DNA of 20,401 nucleotides, taken from positions 1 through 20,401 of the IMG/VR virus record IMGVR_UViG_3300027906_000199. One strand, written 5' to 3'. The stretch comes from a virus. A program made the position numbers and the translations under genes. This document shows positions 2,049-18,629 of this stretch, one piece after another. Numbering within the stretch: position 1 is the stretch's first letter; each line of letters opens with the position of its first letter. The notes below the pieces were generated by a model. It was not told where the DNA came from and searched no databases. It was given only the letters and a program-made list of their open reading frames with translations.

Positions 2049-2074
2049 ACTCATAATTGTTGTGGACAAATTAC

Positions 2075-2476
2075 GTGCCTGTCCAAAGAGTCAGTCAAGG
2101 GTTTAAGGATGTAAGTGCATCATTTAAAATCAACCCAGTAAATCTAGATTTAATTGTAGTACGAAATGAGAATGCAATTGCACGATCTATTCGTAACTTA
2201 ATTTTCACTATTCCTGGTGAGAAACCATTTCAACCTAGTGTTGGTTGTCAGGTAACTAATTTGTTATTTGAAAATTTAGATAGACTTACTGCTAGTTCTA
2301 TTCAATCTCAGATTGAGTATACTATCAATCGATTTGAACCTAGAGCAGGTTTAAGAAGTGTAACTGTTAATCCAAATTTTGATGCCAACATATTTGAAGT
2401 CACTATCAGATATGATATTATTGGTTTGGATGTTGCTCAACAACAATTATCATTCGCATTACAACCCACTAGGTAA
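2075..2476 (+). CDS. 25: baseplate wedge protein gp25 (GPW/gp25 family)
   Basis: A homologue of T4 gp25, the small lysozyme-like-fold wedge protein that helps join the wedge to the tube and sheath base. With the GTG at 2075 it has 133 residues, close to T4 gp25 (132). Family signatures are NENAIARSIRNLI (31-43), the loop PGEKPFQPSVG (47-57) and a C-terminal strand ending in DIIGLDVAQQQLSFALQPTR, the usual cyanophage-type finish. The frame is open back to TTG at 2057, adding six residues. GTG is preferred because GGA (2064-2066) sits 8 nt upstream while nothing resembling a ribosome site precedes the TTG. The ATG of gene 6 follows its TAA directly, so the two are surely coupled. A late promoter lies at 2042. 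Confidence 0.9.
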   Translation: MPVQRVSQGFKDVSASFKINPVNLDLIVVRNENAIARSIRNLIFTIPGEKPFQPSVGCQVTNLLFENLDRLTASSIQSQIEYTINRFEPRAGLRSVTVNPNFDANIFEVTIRYDIIGLDVAQQQLSFALQPTR

Positions 2477-4522
2477 ATGCCTTTAGTAAATTTTAGCGAT
2501 TTAAATTTTGATCAGATAAAAACTTCAATAGTTGATTATCTTCGTGCAAATACAAATTTCACGGATTATGATTTTGAAGGATCTAATCTAAGTACAATCA
2601 TCGATACGTTAGCTTATAATACGTATATCACTTCATATAATGCCAATATGGCAACAAATGAAGTATTCATTGATAGTGCAACGTTAAGGGAGAATGTAGT
2701 ATCTCTTGCACGTAACATAGGATATGTACCTAGATCAAAGAAGTCATCAGTAGCAAGAATTAGTTTTACAGTAAATGTATCAAATACAACTGCTGTAGCT
2801 ATAACACTCAAGGCTGGTGAAGTTGTGGCATCTAGGTCAACTGGTGTCAATAGTATGAAGAATTTTACATTCTCTATACCAAATGATATTACAGTCCCAG
2901 TCAATTCTGCAGGTTTTGCAGACTTTTTCAATATTGATGTATATGAGGGAACATATGTCACTCAAACATTTACTGTCGATACTGCTAATCCTCAACAGAA
3001 ATTTGTATTACCTAACTCTGGTATTGATACCGATTTATTATCAGTTGTCGTAAGAGATACTAAAGACTCAACTGTAACTAGAAAGTTTGAGTTATTTGAT
3101 AGTTTATTTGACGTTACCGCATCAACTCGAGCATATTTTATTCAAGAGATTGGACAAGAGAGATATGAGTTGATGTTTGGTGATGGTATTTTTGGTGTTG
3201 CATTAGAGAATGACAATTATGTTGAAGCAAGTTATATTATTACAAATGGAAGTTTAGCAAATAATATTAACCAGTTCTCATTTATAGGTAATCTCAGAGC
3301 TACTAATGGTGATGCCGTAAGTTCTGGAGTATCAATTATAACTACAGAGGCATCATCTGGTGGTGGTAAATCAATTGAATCAGTTGAATCTATCAAAAAA
3401 TATGCACCTCAAATCTATGCATCACAAAACAGAGCAGTAACTGCAGCTGATTATGAAGCATTGATTCCACAAATTTATCCTGAAGCCGAATCAGTTTCAG
3501 CATTTGGTGGTGAAGATTTATCTCCACCTTCTTATGGTAAGGTGTTTGTAAGTATCAAACCATATAATGGTGTCTTCTTATCGAGTGCAATCAAACAAAA
3601 CTTACAACAGTATATGAGAAATTATTCTGTTGCAGGTATTTTGACTGAGATTGTTGACCTGAAGTATTTGTATATTGAATCAAATTGTAAGGTATACTAT
3701 GATGCTAATTTGGCACCAACTGCATCATATGTTAAGGACTTAGTTCTGAAGAATATTGTTAAGTATGCTGAATCATCTGATGTCAATAAGTTTGGTGGAA
3801 GGTTCAAGTATTCTAAGTATCAACAGGTAATTGACCAAAGTCAAGAATCTGTTATGTCAAACATTACAAATATTGACATAAGAAGAGACATTAATACACA
3901 ATTGAACACATTTGCTGAATATGAATTGTGTTTCGGAAATCGTTTTTATGTAAAAAATCATGGACATAGTGCAAATTATGATGGTAGTATTGTTGGATAT
4001 AATATTAAGTCATCCGGTTTTACTGTCAGTGGTATTAGTGGAACTGTATACCTAGGTGATAAACCCTATGGTGATTTGACTAAAGGAACAATATTCTTGT
4101 TCAAACTGAAGTCTTCATCAGAACCGTTTATTGTAAAACAAAATATAGGTACAATTGATTATATTAAGGGAGAGATTAAACTCAACCCACTCAATGTCAT
4201 ATCTACGATTGTGAACAGAGGGGCTCCTTTGATTGAAGTTTCTGCTACTCCATACTCAAATGACGTGATCGGACTCCAAGATCTCTATCTACAATTGGAT
4301 GTAAATAATACAACAGTTAACGTTATCCCTGACAATATTTCTTCTGGAAATGATGTATCAGGAAGTAACTATATTGTGTCTTCAAGTTATGGTTCTAATG
4401 TGTTGGTTAGAGGCCAGTTGATATTTCAAAACGAAGTAACACCTAGTCAATTACAAGATCGTCCCAACATAAACTTTACCTCAACTTCAGGTATAACTAG
4501 AAGAACAAGATCATCTTACTAA
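2477..4522 (+). CDS. 6: baseplate wedge subunit gp6 (J-like)
   Basis: A 681-aa protein of about the length of T4 gp6 (660), the dimeric core of the wedge and inner baseplate ring. The N-terminus MPLVNFSDLNFDQIKTSIVD, followed by the DYDFEGSNLSTIIDTLAYNT and NEVFIDSATLRENVVSLARN stretches at about residues 35-85, is the classic gp6/J-like signature. A further conserved block is AVTAADYEALIPQIYPEAES (about 320-339). The C-terminal ~170 residues (from NRFYVKNHGH) form a beta-rich region typical of the cyanophage version. The ATG abuts the gene 25 stop, with AGG (2471-2473) as a close weak ribosome site, which suggests expression by translational coupling. The giant gp7-like gene starts 18 nt after its stop. 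gp6 is cytoplasmic until assembled with gp7, gp8, gp10, gp25 and gp53. Confidence 0.93.
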   Translation: MPLVNFSDLNFDQIKTSIVDYLRANTNFTDYDFEGSNLSTIIDTLAYNTYITSYNANMATNEVFIDSATLRENVVSLARNIGYVPRSKKSSVARISFTVNVSNTTAVAITLKAGEVVASRSTGVNSMKNFTFSIPNDITVPVNSAGFADFFNIDVYEGTYVTQTFTVDTANPQQKFVLPNSGIDTDLLSVVVRDTKDSTVTRKFELFDSLFDVTASTRAYFIQEIGQERYELMFGDGIFGVALENDNYVEASYIITNGSLANNINQFSFIGNLRATNGDAVSSGVSIITTEASSGGGKSIESVESIKKYAPQIYASQNRAVTAADYEALIPQIYPEAESVSAFGGEDLSPPSYGKVFVSIKPYNGVFLSSAIKQNLQQYMRNYSVAGILTEIVDLKYLYIESNCKVYYDANLAPTASYVKDLVLKNIVKYAESSDVNKFGGRFKYSKYQQVIDQSQESVMSNITNIDIRRDINTQLNTFAEYELCFGNRFYVKNHGHSANYDGSIVGYNIKSSGFTVSGISGTVYLGDKPYGDLTKGTIFLFKLKSSSEPFIVKQNIGTIDYIKGEIKLNPLNVISTIVNRGAPLIEVSATPYSNDVIGLQDLYLQLDVNNTTVNVIPDNISSGNDVSGSNYIVSSSYGSNVLVRGQLIFQNEVTPSQLQDRPNINFTSTSGITRRTRSSY

Positions 4523-4540: not shown

Positions 4541-7500
4541 ATGACAGTAGATAGAGTTAAATTCCAACAAATTGTTGAGAGTCAACTCCCTAGATATGTT
4601 AGGGAAGATTTTCCGTTGCTCGGTGATTTCTTAAAACAGTATTATATCTCTCAGGAGTTTGAAAGTGGTCCTATTGATATTCTTGATAACATCGATCAAT
4701 ATGTAAAAGTTGACAAATTATGTGATGTTGTTGACTCTACTGTATTGACTAGATCAATAAACCAAGTTGAAGATACTATTGATGTATTCTCAACAGAAGG
4801 TTTCTCTGAAAATAATGGTATTATACAGATTAATAATGAAATTGTATTCTATCAAACCAAAACTGAGACTTCATTTGTAGATTGTTCTAGAGGTTTTAGT
4901 GGGGTTACAACATATATTACTCCTGGTACACCTGATGAACTGACATTTTCTACATCAATTGCAGATACTCACTTAATTGGTGCAAATGTAAAGAATTTAA
5001 ACGTTCTTTTTCTGAAACAATTTCTAACTAAACTAAAAAGGCAGGTAACTCCAGGGTTTACTGATAGAAATTTTTATCCAGGATTGAATCAAAGAAACTT
5101 CATACTCAATTCTGATAGTTTTTATAAGTCAAAAGGTACTGAACAATCATACGAAATACTCTTTCGGGCACTATATGGTGAAGATGTAGAACTTATTCGG
5201 CCATCAAAGTTCCTTTTAACACCATCTAATGCAGATTATAAGGTTACCAAAGACTTTGTTGTAGAACAACTTGAAGGTGATCCACTAGAATTAAAGAATC
5301 TTACCATATATCAAGAACTAACTGGTGCAAGAGGGTCTGTTACCAACGTACAACAGATACCTTATGAGAATTTTCAATACTATCAGATCAGTATTGACTC
5401 AGGTTATGATAGAGATGATGATGTAAGTGGTTCTATTTTTGGTGAATTCAAGGCAAATCCACTTACAAAAATTCTAAACAACGTAAGTGTTGGTTCAACT
5501 ATCATTGATGTTGACTCCACAATCGGGTTTCCTGAGTTTGGTACCCTTAGTGTATTGGATATTGACAATAATGAGGTATCTATTGCATATAGTGGTAAGA
5601 CTTCGAACCAATTTTTCAATACAAGTGGGGTCACTAATAAAGTTTTAAAGAAAGAAGACATAACTTTAGACACGTATTCGTATGCATACGTCGGTATTAC
5701 TACTGAAAAACAAATAAAAGTCAGATTTACGTCTACTATACAAGATTTTATCCCAAATGGACCCAATTTTTACTATAGGAAAAATGATACTGTAGAATTG
5801 CAGTCTCTTGGGTATGAATCTGAGACGAAAAAATCCAATAATTACGTATTAAATGTAAAAACTTACTGGGATGTTGTAGATACTAACGTTATTGATGCCG
5901 ATGCCTTTGTATATGAGTTCAAATTCCTAAAAGATCACTTTTTAAGAGAAGGTTATCAGGTAAGATATGAAAATTTAGACGGAACTTACTCAATTTTTGG
6001 TAAAGTTTCGAGAGTTGTGTCTGCAAGAGAAGTCAGAGTGACTTTTGCGCAGCAAATTAACCTAAAAGGACAGTTTATTATAGAAAATCAGACCTTAAAA
6101 GGTGATTCTCAGACATATCCTTACTTAAAAAACTACATTGCGAACGTTCAGAACACATATAGCAAGTATGATGGCGATTTAATCATTGCTTCCAACTCTA
6201 TTGCACGTTATAATAACATTGAAACTGATCCTTATGACAAAAAAATAACTTTTAGTGCAAATTTGAGTTCAACAGACATTCTTATCTTGCCAACTAATCC
6301 CACAACAAGGCCAGATCATGGCTTTTATACGGGTGATGCAGTATTTTTTACATCTGAGGGTAATGGTTTTGAAGGTGTACCTTCAGCTTCATACTTTGTG
6401 TATAGAATTGATGAGAAATCTATCAAACTTTCTAGAAGTAAGGCTGATTTGTCTAGAAAGATTTACATTACCTTCAATGGTTCTGTAGTTGATGCCTCTG
6501 TTGCATATCTTGATTTTTATCAGAAGAATATAGAACCCCAAGGATTGTATAGGCAGATTTCAGTACCTATCAATGATCAGAACTCTTATACCACTAGAGC
6601 CGGTTATACTGGCATGTTCATCAATGGTGTTGAACTAGTAAACTATAAGGACCAAAGTAGTGTTTATTATGGTCAGATTGATAATATGACCATGACTGCT
6701 GGTGGTCAAGGATATGACATTATAAATCCTCCAATATTGAAAATTTTTGATGAAGTTGGTTCTGGTGCCACTGGTATATGTAATGTAAAAGGTTCACTTC
6801 TAAGACTTGACGTTATAGACACTGGTCTTGGGTATTATGAAACCCCCACAATCTCTATTACTGGTGGTAATGGTACGGGTGCAAAAGCTGAACCAAGAAT
6901 GGTATCAATTAAGCATGAAAATTCGTTTTTTGCTGATTTTCCATCTCAAGTTGATCTGAATATTAATACAATCACCTTTCCAAGTGATCACAAACTATTG
7001 GATGGTGAAAAGATAGTCTACGAACCCAGAGGTACTGAAGTTATTACTGGTCTTAGAACTGATAGTTCTTACTTTGTATTTGTTGTAGACCAAGTTACTA
7101 TCCAACTTCATACGAGTAAAAGTGATTCACTTGTAGGTATCAATACAGTCAATTTCACAAAATATGGATCTGGTACTCAATACTTTGTTGCAGCAGATCT
7201 AAAACAGGTTGTGTCTTCAGTTGTAGTCACTAATCCAGGACAGAACTACGAAAACAAGCAAAGAACTATTCCTCCAGTAGGTGTTAATACTGCAGCAAAC
7301 CAAGTAGAAATTATAAATCATGGTTATGAATCAAAAGAAATTGTAAGATATACTAAACCAGCTTCTGGTAGTCCTGTTGAGGGACTAGAGGAAGAGACTG
7401 ACTACTATGTCGTCAAGGTTAGTGATAATGCATTCTCATTGACTGAAATTGGTGTTGAACCTGTATCAACAGATTATTATTATGATAGTGGTATTATTAT

Positions 7501-10500
7501 CAACTTTATAAATGAAGGTTTGGGTTCTTTCAACTATCAACCAATTACTGTAGAAGTTGAAGGTGCCGCAGCTTCTTATGATAAGACCTTCGTGGCAACT
7601 TTTGAAGAACTATTCATTATTGAGTCTCCAATTGAAAAAAATATCATTACACCTATTCAAACTCTTGCATGGACAGACACTGAAGCAGAGATTACAAATA
7701 ATGGTACAGTACCAAATGAATGGTATGTTGAAGTAAATACAAGGTCTGAATGGTTGATTAGTGATGTACCATTTATTGGTAACATTCTTCTGTATGATGC
7801 AAAAGTTCAACCCATCTTTAGAGGGTCTATTGAGAGTATCGATTTAACTGATGGTGGTGTTGGTTATGGTTCTTCAGATATTCTAGATTTTGTAAGACAA
7901 CCTGAAGTTGTGTTTAGTACTGGTGAGGGTGCAAAGGTAACCCCAATCATCAACAACGGACAAATTGTAGAAGTTGTTATCAATACTCCAGGTGAAGGTT
8001 ACAATTCTCCTCCAGACTTACAGATTGTGAGTGAGACAGGTGCCTATGCTGTTTTAGTTCCTATCATTGAAGATGGTTGTCTTAAGAATATAATCATATC
8101 GAAAGGTGGTACTGGTTATGTTACAGGTAAGACTGGTATCAATGTTATAGCATCCGGTAAGGGTGCTAGAGTGAATGCAAATACACAATCCTGGAATGTC
8201 AATCTATTTGAAAAAAATTATAATAATATCCTTGATGATGATGGATTTATTGAGGAGAATATTTCGAATGATACTCTAGAATATTGTGCTGCATATGTAC
8301 CTAGACCTCTCAGAAGAAGTCTGAATGTGATAAATGGTTTTGAAGAAAATAATGAGTTATATGGTATATTTGACTTAAGTTTTGTTCCAGAGACAGGTGA
8401 AGAGGCACCTAATATCTATCACTCACCTATCGTTGGATGGGCATATGATGGTAATCCGATTTATGGCCCTTATGGTTTTGCAAATATTGATGGTACAGGT
8501 GTTATCAAGAGAATGCAGTCCGGTTATAAACTGGCAAAAGTTCAAAAAGGTAGACCTCCTTATAGTGCATTCCCAAATGGGTTCTTTACAAAAGACTATA
8601 TTTTCAATGGTGATGGGGATTTGGATGTTCATAATGGTAGATTCTGTGTAACCCCTGATTATCCTGATGGAATATACGCATACTTCTGTACTATTTCAGA
8701 AGAGGTTGCTTCTACTGGTCCATTCACTAATTACAGAATTCCAGTATTCCCATATGTGATTGGTGATACTTATAGGTCAACACCTATAGCATATAACTTC
8801 TTGGCAAGGTCTAATCAAACTGATTATGATATTGAATGTAAGGGTTGGTTCAGAAACACCAAGTATTATTACACGAATGGTGGAAAGAGTGGATATGAAT
8901 ATATCTTCAATTCCAATACTGTGAGAAAACAGACTATTGATGTTACATCAACATCTGCTGGAATTGTAGATAATGTTGAAGTGTTTGACCGTGGTCAGGA
9001 TTATAGAGTCAATGACAAAGCAATCTTCAATAACACTGATACTGGTGGTAGGAATTTAAATGTTGTAGTCTCTAGAGTTGAAGGTAAAAAGGTAGAATCT
9101 GTAAGTCTTGCTACAACCTATATTGATAATGTTGAAGTTTATTCAAGTACTCTTTCTAATTTGTTTGTTGGATTGACTTCAGCACCACATGGTTTCCTTT
9201 CTGATGATACTGTTTTCATCGATGGACTTTCTGATACGTATAAGAATTTCCAAGGTTCTTATAGTATTGGTATTAGTAGTGCAAGATGGTTCACTTCTCT
9301 GGGTATTGAAACAGGTCCTGTTACCGGTATTGTGACTTACATATATGTTTCTGGTAGTCTTGATGGTTCTACTATACAATCAGATGACATTTTGAGGATT
9401 GATGATGAGAAGTTCAAAGTTCTGAATATCGATCAACTCTCAGGTAGGATTAGAGTCAAGAGGGGTTACGACGATACCTTGTCTGTTACTCATACTTCTG
9501 GTTCTTTGGTCAGTAATGACCCAAGACTAATTGCATTTATATCTGCAGGTATTACTACAACAAAAGATTTACCATCAAATAGAAAATATTACTTCGAACC
9601 TAATGAATCAGTAGGTCTTGGTAGTGAAGTTGTTGGTACTGCAACAACATTAGTATTTGCTAATCCTGGTGCAGGTAAGACTCAAATGAGAGTCGATCAA
9701 CAACAACTTTACATACCAGGTCATAACCTTACATTGAATACTCCAATGACCTACCATACTAATGGTGGTACATCTATTGATGTTTGGAGTGGAATTACTA
9801 GTTCTAATATATTCCCGTTAGAATCGAATAGACACGTTTTTGCAGTTCCGTTTACTAAAGATATAATCGGTATTGCTACAGTCAAGGTTGGTATTGATAG
9901 TACCTCAGGTCACTACGTTGGTATTTCTAGTGACACAGGTGGTCTTTTATACTTTACCACTTCAGTTGGTCTTGGTAGTTACCATAGTTTCCAAACCAAT
10001 CTTCCATCAGTATTCAGTTGTAGAGTTTCTAAGAACGTTGTTACTGTTGGTACTGCAGGTACACATGGATTGAAACCTAAAGATATTGTTACTGTTGATG
10101 TAAACCCAACTACAGTTACAGATATATCTGTCATCTATGATGATTATAATAGAAGAATTGTATTTGATCCTGATACTATTGAACCTGCAGGTATTAATAC
10201 AGTTGCTAATACCTTTGTTGTTCCTGAAGACAAGTATCAGTTAGGTGACAAGGTTATCTACAGTTCAGTAGATCCTGATCCAAATCTTTCTAATAAGGGT
10301 CTTTATTATGTTTATGTTTTTGACAACAATAAGATTAAGTTGGTTGAGTATGCATCTGAACTGAGTAGGGAGACACCTGCCTTTGTCAATATCGGAACTG
10401 CACACACCACTACACTCTCCAGAATCAATCCAGAACTGAAAGTTCAGAAAAATCAAAATATAAGATTTGATCTTTCTGATGATTCACTATCTTTTTCAAA

Positions 10501-13500
10501 TTCTGGTATTAAACTTTCTGCCTTTGATATGTTCATCTATAAAGATGATTCATATAGGAATAAATTCTGGATTGGAAGAAATTCGTCTTCCTTTGATGTT
10601 ATCAAAACCGGAGTTGTTGGTATCGATACAGATGCAAACTTGACTCTTGTAGTTAATGATGATATTCCCACTAATCTATGGTATAACTTTGAGGTTGATA
10701 ATGTTGATTTCAACCTACCAGTAAAATTGAAAGAATATACTGATACGACTGTATATAACAATAATCAGATTAATATCACCAAAAACAAATTTGATGGTGA
10801 TTATAAGGTTACTGGTATCACATCTATGACCTTTGATTATAATATTCCATATAATAGAGATACTATTGATAGTTACGATACAACGACTGCTATTATGAAG
10901 TATGTGACAAGTTCTCCCAACACGATTGGACCTATTGCACAATTTGCAATATTGGACCATGGAAAAGGTTACAGGTCTCTTCCTGGATTCCTTTTTGTGA
11001 ATAGTGCTAAGGGTTTTGGAGCACTGTTACAACCAACTAGTACTTCTATTGGTAATATTTTATCAACGAAGGTAAATTATATTGGGTTTGGTTATCCATC
11101 GGATACAACTCTGAATGCAGTTGGTAACTTACCAGAAGTTATGAAAATTGAACCTTTGGGTTCATTTGAGCATATTGGTATTAGTTCTAATGGTTTGAAC
11201 TACTATGAGGCACCAGACCTTGTTGTAATCGATGGTGTAACAAAAAAACAAATAACTGATGTAAAATTATTTTATAAGTTGGGTGATACCAACGTTGATA
11301 TTGTTGAGAACACAATTTCACTCAATAATGTTCTTCCATCAATTATTCCAACCAATAACTCAAACGGGTTTGGTATTAGTTCTGTTTCTTATGACTCAAC
11401 ATCGAAGGTTGTTAAACTTTCATTGTCCAAACAGTTTAGTGACCCTCAAGATTGGCCATTCAAATTGGGTGAGACCATAATTGTTGAAGATATTGCCATT
11501 GGTTTTAGTACTGACGGAAGAGGTTACAACTCAGCGAATTATGAGTATGCATTATTCCCGGTAATTGAGCTTGATAGCAATCTTGGTGGTTCTGGTGCAT
11601 ACATTAAGTATAGTCTGGCAGATTATCTCGGTCCTAATGAAGAACCAGGTAAAGTAACGAATTTTAATGTTGGAAAAATTACTCCAAAAACACATTTCCC
11701 AATTTTTAATATAAAATTAAAAATCTCCAATTTCTTTAATGGGGAAAAGGTGTATAATGCCGGTAATGAAGGTATTGTCGAGAGATGGGACCCCGTTAGT
11801 GAGTATCTGTTTGTCTCTACTGGTTCTGATTTTAAAGTTGGCAGTATTATTGAGTCTGAAACATCACAAATTAAGTCTAAAATCAAATCTAAAATTGATT
11901 TCCACTCAACTGTTACTCTTGGTGCAGGAACAACATTTATTGATGGTTGGCAATCCAACTCTGGTATGTTGAATGACAATCTTCAAGTTATTCCCAATAA
12001 TGAGTACTATCAGAACTTCTCATATTCACTCTCGTCGAGAGTTCCTTATAAGACTTGGGATGACCCAGTAAGTTCTCTCAACCATACTGCAGGTTTTGAG
12101 AAATTTGCAGACCTTATTATTGATAATGGTGCAGCAAGTATTACCACAGTCAAAGAAGTGGATGTTGAAACTGTTGTTGACCTTATTGGTGAGAGTAGTT
12201 TGTATTGTTTCCCTGATTTTGATGGTGTAACAGAAACTACTGTCAATATCAGTGATGGTAAGATAGTATCTGACACAATTATATTTGAAAACAAAATTCT
12301 ACTGGATTACTTCGAATCTAGAGGTAATAGAGTATTGGACATTGATGACTTTAGTGGAAGATTCAATAGTAATCCAAGGTCAACCAGATACTCTATTGTA
12401 GATTTCTTTGATAACAAGTATTTCTTTAACAAGTTCTTTATTTTGGTTCGGGATCAGGAACTCAGGAACAGAAATCAATTTAGTATTGTCTCACTAGTAC
12501 AGGATGGTAAGAGAGGTTTTGTCAATGAGTATAGTATCTTAGAGTCTGCAAGGCCTCTGGGTTATTATGGTTATATTAAGGCAGGAGAGGACAAATGGGG
12601 TCTAACCTTCTATCCATTCCTATACAAGTATAATAACTATGATATTTCTTACTTCACTTTCAGTGGATTGAATAATGTAACTGGAATTGGAACTCAACAA
12701 CTTGGTGATGTAGTTAGAATTTCTACTGCAAGTACTGATGTTGCTGTTGCAACAACCACTAATCTGGTTTCAATTGCATCTACTTATAGGGCTGCTAAAC
12801 TCCTTATTCAAATGCAAGATGCAGAAGACAATTATTATGGTAATGAACTCAATATAATTCACGATGGAACAAGAGTAACTACTCTTCAATATGGTGCAAA
12901 TGATAATAAAGTTGGACTTGCAGGTCTGGAAAGTTCTGGTTTTGGAACCTACCACACTTACATTTCTGGAGGATTGATTAAGGTTGATATTGTTCCTACT
13001 GTAGGGACTGCAGTTACTGCAAATGTAAGTATTGTTGCTATCTCTGATAGTAATTCTACTGGTGTATCTACAACAAATATGGTAGTTACAAATCTTTCAT
13101 CTTACAGTAAGACGATTGCAGCTTCTGCATCTCCCGTTGAAAATGTCGTTGCTTCTTACTCTACACCATTCAACTCAGAGTACTTTATTTTATCGATAGA
13201 AGATACTACAAACAATGAGTATGAGATGTATGAAGTGAACATTCTCAGTTTCGATTCTACTAATAGGATTGTCAAATATGGTGATATAGTAACCAACCAA
13301 ATAACTAATGCTGGTCTAGGAACTGTTGGTGTTACAAATACTGGTAATGAAACCAATCTTGTATTTACACCAGACCCCAATATTGATGTTCAAATAAGAG
13401 CATTTGGTATTTCTCTCAAGAATTACAATGATATTACTGGTATTTCCTCTATCAACCTCAATAATAACGTACTATTCTCAGAATATGGAACTTATACTGG

Positions 13501-16500
13501 TACAGAGTTTGACAAGAAGACTTCATTCTTATTGAACTCCAACTATCTTCCAATATTCCAAAGAAGTTTTGCTGGTAACGATCCACTTGTAGTCAAAACC
13601 AACAACAATAATGTTATTATTGATGACCACTACTTTGTAACGGGTGAGAAAGTTACTTACAGTTATGAGAACTCCAGTCAATCAACTGCAAATGCTATTG
13701 GTATTGGAACAACTGTAATTGCTGGTGTAGCTACAGATAAACTTCCATCTACTGTCTATATTGTAAAATTCAGTAATAAGGCTGTAGGGTTTGCGAAAAG
13801 TGCAGGGGCCGCACTAAGTGTTACTCCTGATTTATTAGATATAACCTCTGTTGGTATTGGCACATTCCATAAACTGACTTGTACGAATCAAAATGCACGA
13901 GCATTGATGGCAGTTGATAATATGATTCAATCACCAGTAACTGAAGTCAATATTGAAACACAATTGACAGAAAGTATTGTATTTGATGTTGACTTCAACG
14001 TTGTTGGAATCGAATCATTCAAGGCAGGTGATTTGGTGAAGATTGATGAGGAAATTATGACTATTCAGAGTACTGGGGTAACTTCTGATGACAGTCTTAA
14101 GGTTCTGAGGGGTCAGTTAGGAACAAAAGTTGCATCACACAATATAGGTACCTCAGTCAATTTACTTGGAGGTAACTACAATATTGTCGATAGCACAGTT
14201 TACTTCTCATCTGCTCCAGCGGGCGCAAGACCGATTGGAACTACTACAGCAGGTCCTGACAATGTTGACTGGACTGGTATTACAACACAATCTAGTTTCC
14301 AAGGTAGAACCTTTATTAGAAGTGGTGTTCGTGATACCGACCAAGATACTTATAGCACTAACTACACCTTTGACAATATTCAAAGTGGTTTCGATGGTCG
14401 AAGAAAGGAATTCAGTCTCACTCAAAATGGTCAAAACTTAGTTGGATTTGCAACTAATCAGGCAATCATATTGAATTCAAATATTCTTCAAGAACCACAA
14501 GGTGGTCAAGATACCACAGGTGATTTTAGTTTCCTTGAAGTTGCTGGTGTTACCAGTATTACATATACAGGTCAGAGTGTTTCTTCAGAAGAAGACCCGA
14601 ACAAAGCAACAATTCCTAGAGGAGGAACAATTATTGCTGTTGGTTCTACTCCTGGACTTGGTTATCAACCACTAATTGGTGCTGGTGCTTCTATATTTGT
14701 CAACTCTGGTGGTACAATCAATTCGATTAGTCTTGGCAATACTGGTTCTGGTTATAGAACTGGTATTCAGACGAATGTGGGTGTTGGTATTATCACATCT
14801 TCTGTAGGTATAACCACTGTTATTGGTATTGGTACTGCAAATATTATTGATGGTCATGTAGATAGTATTGACCTTTATAACCTTGGTTCTGACCTTGACT
14901 TCAATAATCCACCTGTAGTTACTATAGACCAACCAATTGGTTTTTCAAATATCCCGTTGGTTTACAGTCCTACTGCTCCAGCAGGAGTTGGTACTGGTGC
15001 AAGAGTTAATGTTACTGTTGGTCAGGGTTCCAGTATCATCAATTTCGATATAGTTAGTGGTGGTTTTGGTTACACTCTGGGTGATAAACTCAACGTTGCT
15101 ATTGGCGGTTCGACAGGTCTTAGAACAGATGCTAGCATCCCATTCACTCCCTTTGAACTAACTGTTACTGATGTATATCGTGACACCTTCAATGGTTTCA
15201 CTATCGGTGAACTAGAGGTATTTGATGTTATTGATGAGTTGTTTGACGGTGTGGCTAAAAAATTCCCCCTCACAATCGCAAAACAACAATATGCTATTGA
15301 AGCAAAGAAAGGTTCAGATATCAATCTTTCCCAGGCACTAATCATAACAATCAATGATGTTCTACAGATTCCTACAGAGGCATATAAGTTCACTGGTGGT
15401 GGTTATGTAGAATTTACAGAACCTCCCAAAAAAGGTGATTCTTGTAAAATTATCTTCTACATGGGTACTCCAGGAGTTGATGTTGTTTTTGTTGACATCC
15501 TCGAAACTGTTAAGATTGGTGATTCACTCCAAATCAAAAATGATAGTTCAAAGGGTCAAACTTTCAGTTTGTATCAAGACCCAAGAGTAGTGACTGGAAT
15601 TACTACTCTTGATACTGTAACTACTCTTGCATATCCTGGTCCTGGTGTTACTACAAATACATCACTTGTAAGACCTGTCACTTGGTGTAAGCAAACTGAT
15701 GATATCACAATCAATGGTACTTTTGTAACTAAGGACAGAATTGACCAGGAACCATATATCTATCCTGCAGCACTACTCACATCTTATGTTGGGTTTACTA
15801 GTAGTTATGCTTATGTTGATAGTGTTAGACCATTGTTTAACTCTAGTGCTGAGACAAATCTTCTTGATTATCAAGATAAAATTTCAATTCTAGACCAAGG
15901 AGTAATTGATGTTGCCACTGCAACAGCAACAACTGGACCAGCAGGAATAATCTCCTCATTTACTGTAACTAATGTCGGTTCTGGTTATAGTTACTTGACA
16001 AACCCATCAGTATCAGTTTCTTTACCTGATGACCCAAGTGGTACTAGAGCAATTGGTATTGCATCTGTAGTCGGTAATGGAGTTGTATCTATTTCTGTGG
16101 CTAGCCCAGGAGCCGGATATACTCAAGCACCTACTGTTCTTATTCAACAACCAACTCCAAGATTAGAAAGGATTGGAGTTTCATCATATTTTGGTGATTA
16201 TGGTGATATTGTTGGTTATGCACATTCTGGTATCAATACGGCATTTATTGAACTTTATATCCCAGAAGATTCTTATATGAGAGACCCTGAGTATGTTGGT
16301 AGTGCTGTTACAGTCAGTCAAATAATTAAGAATGATATCTTTATGGTCAAGGTCTCAAATGTCGGTATATTTACTGGTAATAATTTTGATGGACTTTATA
16401 CGGTCAAGAATGCAGAAACTGTTACTAAAAATCTTTCAAACCTAGGTTTGGGTGTAACCCAAGTTAGAAGAATTGAGTTTACCGGTCAGGGTTACTCTCC

Positions 16501-16717: not shown

Positions 16718-17044
16718 ATGGCATATCAAGGTATTAATACGGGTACATCTCCCAATACGGGTTCAGGTGACTCTCTAATTGTAGGTGCCGAAAAGATTAA
16801 TAGTAATTTTCTTCAACTGTTTACAGCCGTTGGTCTTGGTTCCACTGGGACTGGTGATGTTAGTGTGAAATCTCTGACGGTTTCTGGTGTAACAACTTTA
16901 TCCACAGTTTCGGCATCTTCTTCGATTACCGCAACTGGTGGATTTACAAGTGGAATTGGTACCCCGGTTAAGATTTCCGTAGTAGGATCTACATTGACAT
17001 TTAGTGTTGCTGGTATTGGATCTACAACTCTTACATTATCGTAA
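16718..17044 (+). CDS. small virion structural protein (108 aa), GTGSGDSL type
   Basis: A 108-residue protein low in charge and rich in Gly, Ser, Thr and Val. The N-terminal block NTGSGDSLIVGAEKINSNF (13-31) is a recurrent signature of cyanophage structural and fibre-like proteins, where it often opens the chain. Residues ~50-76 (VKSLTVSGVTTLSTVSASSS and on) look like a beta-structured stalk of the type found in phage fibres. The C-terminus closes with GSTLTFSVAGIGSTTLTLS. AAGGA (16700-16704) is a plausible, rather distant ribosome site. It sits between the gp7-like and gp8 genes, where T4 has none, with its own late promoter (16682). Probable role: a minor baseplate or fibre-attachment protein; the exact role is inferred from location and composition. 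Confidence 0.75.
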   Translation: MAYQGINTGTSPNTGSGDSLIVGAEKINSNFLQLFTAVGLGSTGTGDVSVKSLTVSGVTTLSTVSASSSITATGGFTSGIGTPVKISVVGSTLTFSVAGIGSTTLTLS

Positions 17045-17069: not shown

Positions 17070-18629
17070 ATGGCTGCTATAATTACAGATCAACTCCGCA
17101 TATTAAATGCGAAGAATTTTGTGGATGATGTACAGAATTCCGCAAATTCTTACTATGCGTGGATTGGTTTACCTGACGCTACTGCATTTCAAAGTGACTG
17201 GGATTCTAATCCTCCAGCACCTAAAGACAGTTTAAATGATTCCAATAATTATTGGGATGATATGTTGGCTCTGAAACGAATCAATGCGTCGGATGTGAGC
17301 CAAGTTGTTAGAAAAATTATATGGCAGTCTGGAACCACATATGATATGTGGAGAAATGATATTACAAGGGATAACCCATCTCTCCCTTCTAATGCATATG
17401 ACATTTATGATGCAAATTACTATGTAATGAATAGTGAGTATAAAGTTTATATTTGTCTATTCAATAATGCAAATCCAGAGAATAGCTATAGAGGTGGTCC
17501 ATCACTAGACGAACCAAATTTCACTGATTTGGAGCCTAGAGAGGCTGGTAGTAGTGGTGATGGTTATATTTGGAAATATCTTTATACTATCAAACCAAAT
17601 GAGATTATCAAGTTTGATTCTACTAATTATATAGCAGTACCAACTGATTGGTTTACTAGTCCAACTTATGCTCCAGTAAGGGAAAATGCTGCTAATAGTG
17701 GTGAAATCAAAATTGTAACCATTAGAAATCGTGGTGTTGGTATTGGAACTGCAAACGTTACTTATACAAGAGTACCTATTTTAGGTAATGGTAGAGGAGC
17801 AGAAGCTACTGTTGTTGTCAATAATGATGCAAAGGTAGAGTCTGTGACTGTATCTAATGGTGGTAATGGTTATACCTTTGGTACACTAGATTTGAAAAAT
17901 GGTGGTGTTCCAAGTGGAACAATTGCACCAGTCTTTGATGTGATTATACCTCCTCCAGGTGGTCATGGTGCTAATATCTATACTGAGTTGGGTGCATATA
18001 ATGTTCTATCTTATGCAAGATTTGAAAATGACACTCAAAACCCAGATTTTATCACAGGAAACCAATTTGCCCAAGTTGGAATTGTAAAAAATCCAACAAA
18101 TTATGATTCTTCTTCAAATCTTACAAGAGACAAGGCTAGTGCTCTATATGCACTCAAACTTGTAGGTACTGGTTATAGTCAGGCGACATTTGTCGCAGAC
18201 TCTTTTGTAACTCAGACTGTTGGTCTTGGTTCTACTGCTGTAGGAAGAGTTGTTTCTTATGACACACAAACTGGTATTCTAAAGTACTGGCAGGACAAAC
18301 GAACTGCAGGTTTTAATACCGATGGAACTCCAGATACAACCCCTGTTTATGGGTTTAATCAGTTACGCTTCACGGAATCTCCAACTGCAGGCGGTAGTAT
18401 TGCTATTGTTCCTACTACAGGTAATACCTTGAGTATTGATGTGAACTTTACGGGTGTTTCTACGGCAATAAATAATAGGACATACTACTTGGGTCAGGAA
18501 TTCACAAAAGGAGTATCAAATCCAGAATCACAAAAATATTCTGGTGATATCATCTATGTTGATAATAGACCTTCTGTTACCCGATCCTCTTCCCAGAAAG
18601 AAGACGTTAAAGTTATCTTGCAATTCTAA
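17070..18629 (+). CDS. 8: baseplate wedge subunit gp8, enlarged
   Basis: A 519-aa homologue of T4 gp8 (334 aa), a dimeric wedge protein that contacts gp6, gp7 and gp10. Three recalled family matches stand out: an N-terminal opening with an aromatic YYAWIGLPDATAF segment (about 28-40); SGDGYIWKYLYTIKPN (163-178), matching GDGYVWEYLFEI in T4; and the C-terminus YSGDIIYVDNRPSV...VILQF (about 490-519), matching the T4 ending with HSGEMIYMENRP. Much of the extra length is a Gly-rich block at about 211-293 (IVTIRNRGVGIGTANVTY, GNGRGAEATVVV, VTVSNGGNGYTF). It is of the same kind as the repeats in the giant protein upstream. The start ATG has a weak ribosome site. A late promoter lies at 17044, and the next gene starts 5 nt after its stop. 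Confidence 0.92.
   Translation: MAAIITDQLRILNAKNFVDDVQNSANSYYAWIGLPDATAFQSDWDSNPPAPKDSLNDSNNYWDDMLALKRINASDVSQVVRKIIWQSGTTYDMWRNDITRDNPSLPSNAYDIYDANYYVMNSEYKVYICLFNNANPENSYRGGPSLDEPNFTDLEPREAGSSGDGYIWKYLYTIKPNEIIKFDSTNYIAVPTDWFTSPTYAPVRENAANSGEIKIVTIRNRGVGIGTANVTYTRVPILGNGRGAEATVVVNNDAKVESVTVSNGGNGYTFGTLDLKNGGVPSGTIAPVFDVIIPPPGGHGANIYTELGAYNVLSYARFENDTQNPDFITGNQFAQVGIVKNPTNYDSSSNLTRDKASALYALKLVGTGYSQATFVADSFVTQTVGLGSTAVGRVVSYDTQTGILKYWQDKRTAGFNTDGTPDTTPVYGFNQLRFTESPTAGGSIAIVPTTGNTLSIDVNFTGVSTAINNRTYYLGQEFTKGVSNPESQKYSGDIIYVDNRPSVTRSSSQKEDVKVILQF
18468..18474 (+). promoter_or_regulatory. possible internal late promoter inside gene 8
   Basis: A full ATAAATA (in CAATAAATAATAGG) lies within the 3' part of gene 8, about 160 nt before the DUF4815-type gene, which has no late promoter in its 5-nt gap. 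It may drive that gene, or be a chance match in an Asn-rich stretch (AINNR). Confidence 0.3.

Follow-up and report, generated by a model that had tools for sequence, protein, structure and literature searches.

A recurrent GxGY unit in the giant baseplate wedge protein of a T4-like cyanophage

Results

A cyanophage baseplate operon encoding a giant gp7-type wedge protein

The window, i.e., the whole stretch of 20,401 bases analyzed here, was identified by Pfam and PHROG matches as a baseplate operon of a T4-like cyanophage (Kyanoviridae; Table 1). The genes follow the order gp25–gp6–giant gene–gp8, which is shared with S-SSM7, Syn1, and Bellamy. In S-SSM7, two giant genes of 9,024 and 9,006 bases, both annotated gp7, are separated by a single small gene (L048 11878–20901 and 21967–30972). 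The giant ORF of the window matched phrog_2885, "baseplate wedge subunit," with an E-value of 0 and 3184 bits (best stretch, residues 1086–3428), and its relatives carry the annotation "baseplate wedge initiator"; it is therefore an already known protein. Alignment with IMG/VR relatives was possible from end to end, near-full-length relatives in viral contigs being 38 to 78% identical, and identity to RB11-B was 64% across a 520-aa segment. In one relative contig (L006 5371–14976 and 14820–17510; L015), a frame change near residue 3200 splits the giant gene into products of 3,202 and 897 aa, reflecting either a sequencing error or a real difference. Mass spectrometry of S-CREM2 virions detected a "baseplate wedge protein, intermediate," encoded directly 3′ of the inner wedge proteins, and not the giant protein (PMC10665884).

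Table 1. Features of the window (nucleotide positions in the window; residues of the protein concerned).
Feature	Residues	Position	Strand	Basis or remarks
Small ORF, then protein with weak glycosyltransferase-like match				First two genes, 5′ of gp25
gp25		2057–2476		Third gene
gp6		2477–4522		Directly before giant ORF
Giant baseplate wedge protein (gp7 position)	4,046 aa	4541–16681	+	Uninterrupted ORF; phrog_2885; between gp6 and gp8, as in T4 and cyanophages
Repeat C	67–125	4739–4915		
T4 gp7-like motif, contains SDSFYKSKGTEQSYEILFRALYGEDVEL	184–218	5090–5194	+	hhalign to T4 gp7 724–758
Repeat C	309–365	5465–5635		
Repeat B	563–650	6227–6490	+	Profile self-comparison
GxGY cluster 1, 2 units	711–789	6671–6907	+	Leave-one-out HMM, self-comparison, A4 profile
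Repeat B, two copies	791–1000 (791–888, 907–1000)	6911–7540	+	Profile self-comparison
GxGY cluster 2, 3 units	1095–1217	7823–8191	+	HMM, self-comparison, A4 profile; AlphaFold beta, pLDDT mostly over 90
YHYH domain (PF14240)	1294–1387	8420–8701	+	Pfam E 9e-25
Weak lone GxGY unit	1474–1511	8960–9073	+	Self-comparison P 2e-4 to 7e-3
Repeat C	1605–1660	9353–9520		
Repeat B, two copies	1716–1965 (1716–1853, 1867–1965)	9686–10435	+	Profile self-comparison
GxGY cluster 3, 2–3 units	2130–2232	10928–11236	+	P ∼1e-5 to 1e-6
Repeat B	3006–3118	13556–13894	+	Profile self-comparison
Repeat C	3139–3210	13955–14170		
GxGY cluster 4, 3–4 units	3366–3526	14636–15118	+	E 2e-4 with profile A4
GxGY cluster 5, 2 units	3802–3872	15944–16156	+	HMM, self-comparison, A4; AlphaFold ∼90
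Small gp9/10-N-like protein		16718–17044		Between giant ORF and gp8
gp8, baseplate wedge		17070–18629		
GxGY units in gp8	211–273	17700–17888	+	Profile and sequence search
DUF4815 protein				Last gene, runs past window end

Toward its N terminus, the giant protein contains a motif that hhalign matched to T4 gp7 with P 2e-6, as compared to a best value of 0.026 among 60 shuffled gp7 sequences. The Pfam Gp7 domains V and VI and the helical domain, all present in T4 gp7, were not found in residues 1 to 560 at E-values up to 10, nor were Pfam Gp7 domains found in the whole protein at E-values up to 0.1. A paper on pelagiphages describes T4 gp7 as missing from both groups, with VrlC in its place (PMC7029224). 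The motif suggests, from sequence likeness, that gp7 is conserved at least in part in the giant protein, which would refine the published view of gp7 as absent and replaced (PMC7029224).

Profile self-comparison of the giant protein revealed at least two repeat families, B and C, besides the unit described below, and possible two-copy families, D and E. Repeat B spans ∼90 aa with the pattern G-[DE]-x-[IV]-x-Y ... YxVxxxD and has at least six copies. The AlphaFold model of the second B copy aligned structurally with small beta-barrel domains of ubiquitin E1 enzymes, phage endosialidases, and phage tail proteins (Z 5.5–9.2, where values below 8 may mean merely a common arrangement). Repeat C, in approximately four copies, has the pattern I-D-x-E-x-[IV] ... 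RG ... H. At residues 1379 to 1382 of the YHYH domain (8675–8686), which we take to be the canonical position of the name-giving motif, the sequence reads YAYF, as in every relative with an alignable domain there. The YHYH domain has been proposed as a zinc hydrolase (PMC7824862); if so, the YAYF version may be missing ligands.

A GxGY unit of about 40 residues recurs in five main clusters

A sequence-only reading of the window had claimed a Gly-rich module in at least ten diverged copies along the giant protein, and all of the segments it quoted were found in the 4,046-aa ORF where it had placed them. The module is a beta-strand unit of ∼40 residues (39–47 aa), G-x-[IV]-x2-[IV]-x-[IV]-x3-G-x-G-Y-x(1-9)-P-x-[IV]-x-[IV]-...-G-x-G-A, present in ∼10 to 15 copies; the count of at least ten was correct. 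G.GY occurred 15 times in the ORF (1.6 expected; maximum of 8 in 1,000 shuffles), and the longer plan G.[GD]Y...G.GA occurred 6 times as compared to 0.016 expected by shuffling. When ten hand-picked seed units were each scored by leave-one-out HMMs against 500 shuffles, six beat all shuffles and three were equaled or exceeded by one shuffle; the unit at residue 1474 was weak, its score being reached by 8 of the 500, and is not significant alone. Profiles of the N or C half did not score units of the other half above shuffles in either direction, and the link between the halves was obtained only with a family alignment of 24 sequences (the giant protein and relatives from viral contigs). With this alignment, hhalign self-comparison recovered the anticipated repeat signal between clusters, with P-values mostly of ∼1e-5 to 1e-13, as compared to ∼0.02 or worse for tiles without the module. 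Iteration of a single-unit HMM ended in drift, the profile becoming shorter and more generic. A tblastn search of phages with an artificial unit consensus returned no match, indicating that single sequences are too weak as a probe.

Divergence of the copies around a kept Gly/Tyr/Pro frame was supported by the self-comparison and by conservation among orthologues. The glycines and tyrosines of the motif were conserved in 0.92 of orthologues as compared to 0.73 for other glycines and tyrosines of the protein, a level equaled in 1 of 10,000 random draws and supporting the proposed selection on the frame. Most units were closer to their own orthologue in other phages than to sister units in the same protein, indicating that the copies are old.

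The units sit in five main clusters of 2 to 4 units each, as islands among beta-barrel-like domains, the YHYH domain, and other repeats. Cluster 3 was matched at E 9e-7 by profile A4, which contains no copy of it, and clusters 4 and 5 matched one another in self-comparison with P 1.6e-12. Spacing was 39 to 47 aa within clusters and irregular between them (gaps of ∼300 to 1,100 aa), so that the regular spacing originally perceived holds inside clusters and fails over the full length of the protein. No long unbroken run of equal rungs was found along the giant protein by profile self-comparison.

Predicted structure and a solved relative of the GxGY unit

AlphaFold predicted residues 690 to 1235 with a mean pLDDT of 77.7, the module parts being beta and mostly above 85; the model of residues 3340 to 4046 was poor (mean pLDDT 61.3), with the cluster region 3784 to 3880 near 90. 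The predictions agree with the beta character expected for the two N-terminal clusters and the C-terminal one. Each unit has three predicted strands, and a two-residue turn connects neighboring units (strands in the modeled segment, e.g., 443–449, 452–460, 470–475, 482–488, and 491–499).

PDB fold searches with both models returned no match reaching E 0.001; the matches listed were mostly to non-GxGY domains and did not include Dpo31 (see below), the searches hardly covering the GxGY parts. PDB sequence searches gave no match for the whole giant protein and weak unrelated matches only for cluster 2. Profile searches of PDB sequences identified one solved relative, the Dpo31 tailspike of Cobetia phage Carin-1 (E 0.0097 with the two-unit profile A3 and 0.0015 with A4). 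This match is short, covering ∼60 residues, with a modest E-value in the search. Its score of 21.8 bits compares with at most 7.2 in 2,000 shuffles, none of which came close. The profile aligned in register with Dpo31 domain D3* at P 4e-6, as compared to P 0.75 for a control stretch of Dpo31 N-terminal to D3*. RuvA, seen as a PDB relative with A3, was gone with A4 and was dismissed. At the level of sequence, the GxGY unit was thus found to be related to D3* (residues 434–536), which is described as an Ig-like domain that projects from the spike (PMC13317679). An Ig-like fold is inferred for the GxGY parts of the giant protein.

Distribution of the GxGY unit

A search for the module in other phage proteins had been proposed, and profiles A3 and then A4 found it in gp5, gp8, gp14, wedge, and fiber proteins. 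The gp8 of the window was matched by residues 1081 to 1224 of the giant protein as query (E 2e-5) and by profile A4, which holds no gp8 sequences (E 9e-7); gp8 proteins of relatives also carry units. Giant wedge proteins, gp8, the gp5 hub-lysozyme, the gp14 neck protein, and fiber and other structural proteins are carriers in S-SSM7, P-SSM2, Syn1, S-PM2, and Bellamy, and the unit was also found in pelagiphage HTVC008M and, in one instance, in Carin-1 (carriers in P-SSM2, S-PM2, and HTVC008M being known by position and size only). The two-unit profile did not find it in T4, KVP40, lambda, or the podovirus P-SSP7. Nineteen PHROG families match A4 members, the majority annotated as virion proteins. 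Neither Pfam (21 and 23 members) nor NCBIfam (21 members) gave a credible match for two-unit segments, and a literature search retrieved no paper with the motif strings and no Kyanoviridae baseplate structure.

Outside phages, the unit turns up often in large ORFs from the genomes of many bacteria and some archaea (Verrucomicrobiota, Bacteroidota, Planctomycetota, and others). Cyanobacteria seldom carry it: of 146 genomes, 2 had a match at E 1e-8, including the center genome of the search, and cyanobacterial genomes were rejected as its source on this count. Two near-identical contigs in a bin labeled Flavobacteriales (L152/L154; G002 contigs C54 and C70) carry a 7,476-aa GxGY-rich ORF and are probably a misbinned marine phage contig.

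Discussion

The giant protein is known; its GxGY unit is without a name in the libraries searched (Pfam and NCBIfam) and is best filed among the Ig-like add-on domains of phage virions. With moderate confidence, we propose that the unit forms an Ig-like add-on beta domain, built from repeated three-strand half-units and presented by the virion, where it would act as a spacer and a surface for interactions. In the models, the half-repeat would run through strand 1, the GxGY loop, a proline, strand 2, the GxGA loop, strand 3, and an Asn/Asp-Gly tight turn leading into strand 1 of the following unit, such that at least two adjoining units may form one small Ig-like domain. These domains would have been inserted at several sites of the cyanophage gp7-type wedge protein and into other virion proteins. 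By homology to T4 gp7, the N-terminal part may anchor the giant protein in the wedge, with the other ∼3,500 residues presumably forming a chain of add-on beta domains outside on the baseplate. The carriers are virion proteins (gp5, gp7, gp8, gp14, and fiber); the domains, if exposed there, could serve as rigid spacers and as surfaces open to contact, putatively touching host surface polysaccharide. Against parts of this proposal stand the shortness of the Dpo31 match, the low published DALI scores of D3*, and the fold searches, which gave no confident match; moreover, a three-unit cluster has no obvious fit to one seven-strand sandwich, and gp14 and gp5 are not obvious host-contact proteins. 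It is doubtful, though conceivable, that the units represent an undescribed widespread domain family, copied by Kyanoviridae into hub, wedge, neck, and fibers as a common surface module, so that one fold would set how much of the tail of marine cyanophages is shown to the host.

The units might instead be carbohydrate-binding domains that chiefly hold host surface polysaccharide during adsorption. D3* adjoins a depolymerase domain and has a distant published DALI likeness to sugar-binding Ig-like domains (low Z, 2.8–2.9; PMC13317679), and the unit is present in fiber and baseplate proteins. However, the conserved positions, which are the frame residues Gly, Tyr, Pro, and Ala, look structural, and the unit also occurs in the gp14 neck and gp5 hub, making this explanation unlikely in our judgment. 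Rungs of a beta-solenoid or stacked rod, forming long stiff arms, would agree with the near-constant tandem unit length in clusters, the three strands per unit, and the confident beta prediction, but clusters hold just 2 to 4 units with unrelated domains between them. Strands 3 and 1 of adjoining units are moreover linked by the hairpin-like two-residue turn, which a parallel solenoid would lack, and a beta-sandwich is the likelier fold, D3*, the only solved relative, being described as Ig-like. We consider such rungs quite improbable; of the solenoid or sandwich rod first envisaged, the single rod along the protein is not supported, given the islands, and the sandwich is favored over the solenoid. 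It is very improbable that the units of gp5, gp7, gp8, and gp14 are assembly contacts docking tail proteins together, for although several proteins of the wedge and hub carry the unit within the same phages, including gp7 and gp8 of the window, its occurrence in fibers, in the spike of a podovirus, and in unrelated proteins of bacteria indicates that no partner module is required.

One of the main building blocks of a known protein gains, through the Dpo31 link, a concrete structural hypothesis; this block has no Pfam or NCBIfam name, yet recurs in virion proteins of the tested marine T4-like phages and also in large bacterial proteins. Among the phages tested, the unit distinguishes Kyanoviridae tail proteins from their counterparts in T4, which lacks it.

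Large ORFs of bacteria and archaea share the GxGY unit, often in tandem; as far as seen they are not baseplate proteins, and some lie on phage-like contigs of metagenome bins. Dpo31 D3* (PDB 28lx, 28mg, and 8ck1) contains a pair of GxGY units that align in register with the profile, as a single domain inserted in a beta-helix depolymerase, and the available text of its report names no sequence family for it (PMC13317679). The T4 gene order agrees with that of the window in outline, and T4 gp7 has the motif FYxxKGxExSYxxLFxxLYxExVEI in common with the giant protein, but T4 gp7 is 1,032 aa long as compared to 4,046 aa and lacks the GxGY unit. The closest likeness is to the Kyanoviridae giant wedge proteins (phrog_2885; Bellamy gene 111, S-SSM7 gp7), which share the position between gp6 and gp8 and, in Bellamy, the length class (4,067 aa); the giant protein of the window is an ordinary member of these gp7-type wedge proteins, and nothing essential differs.
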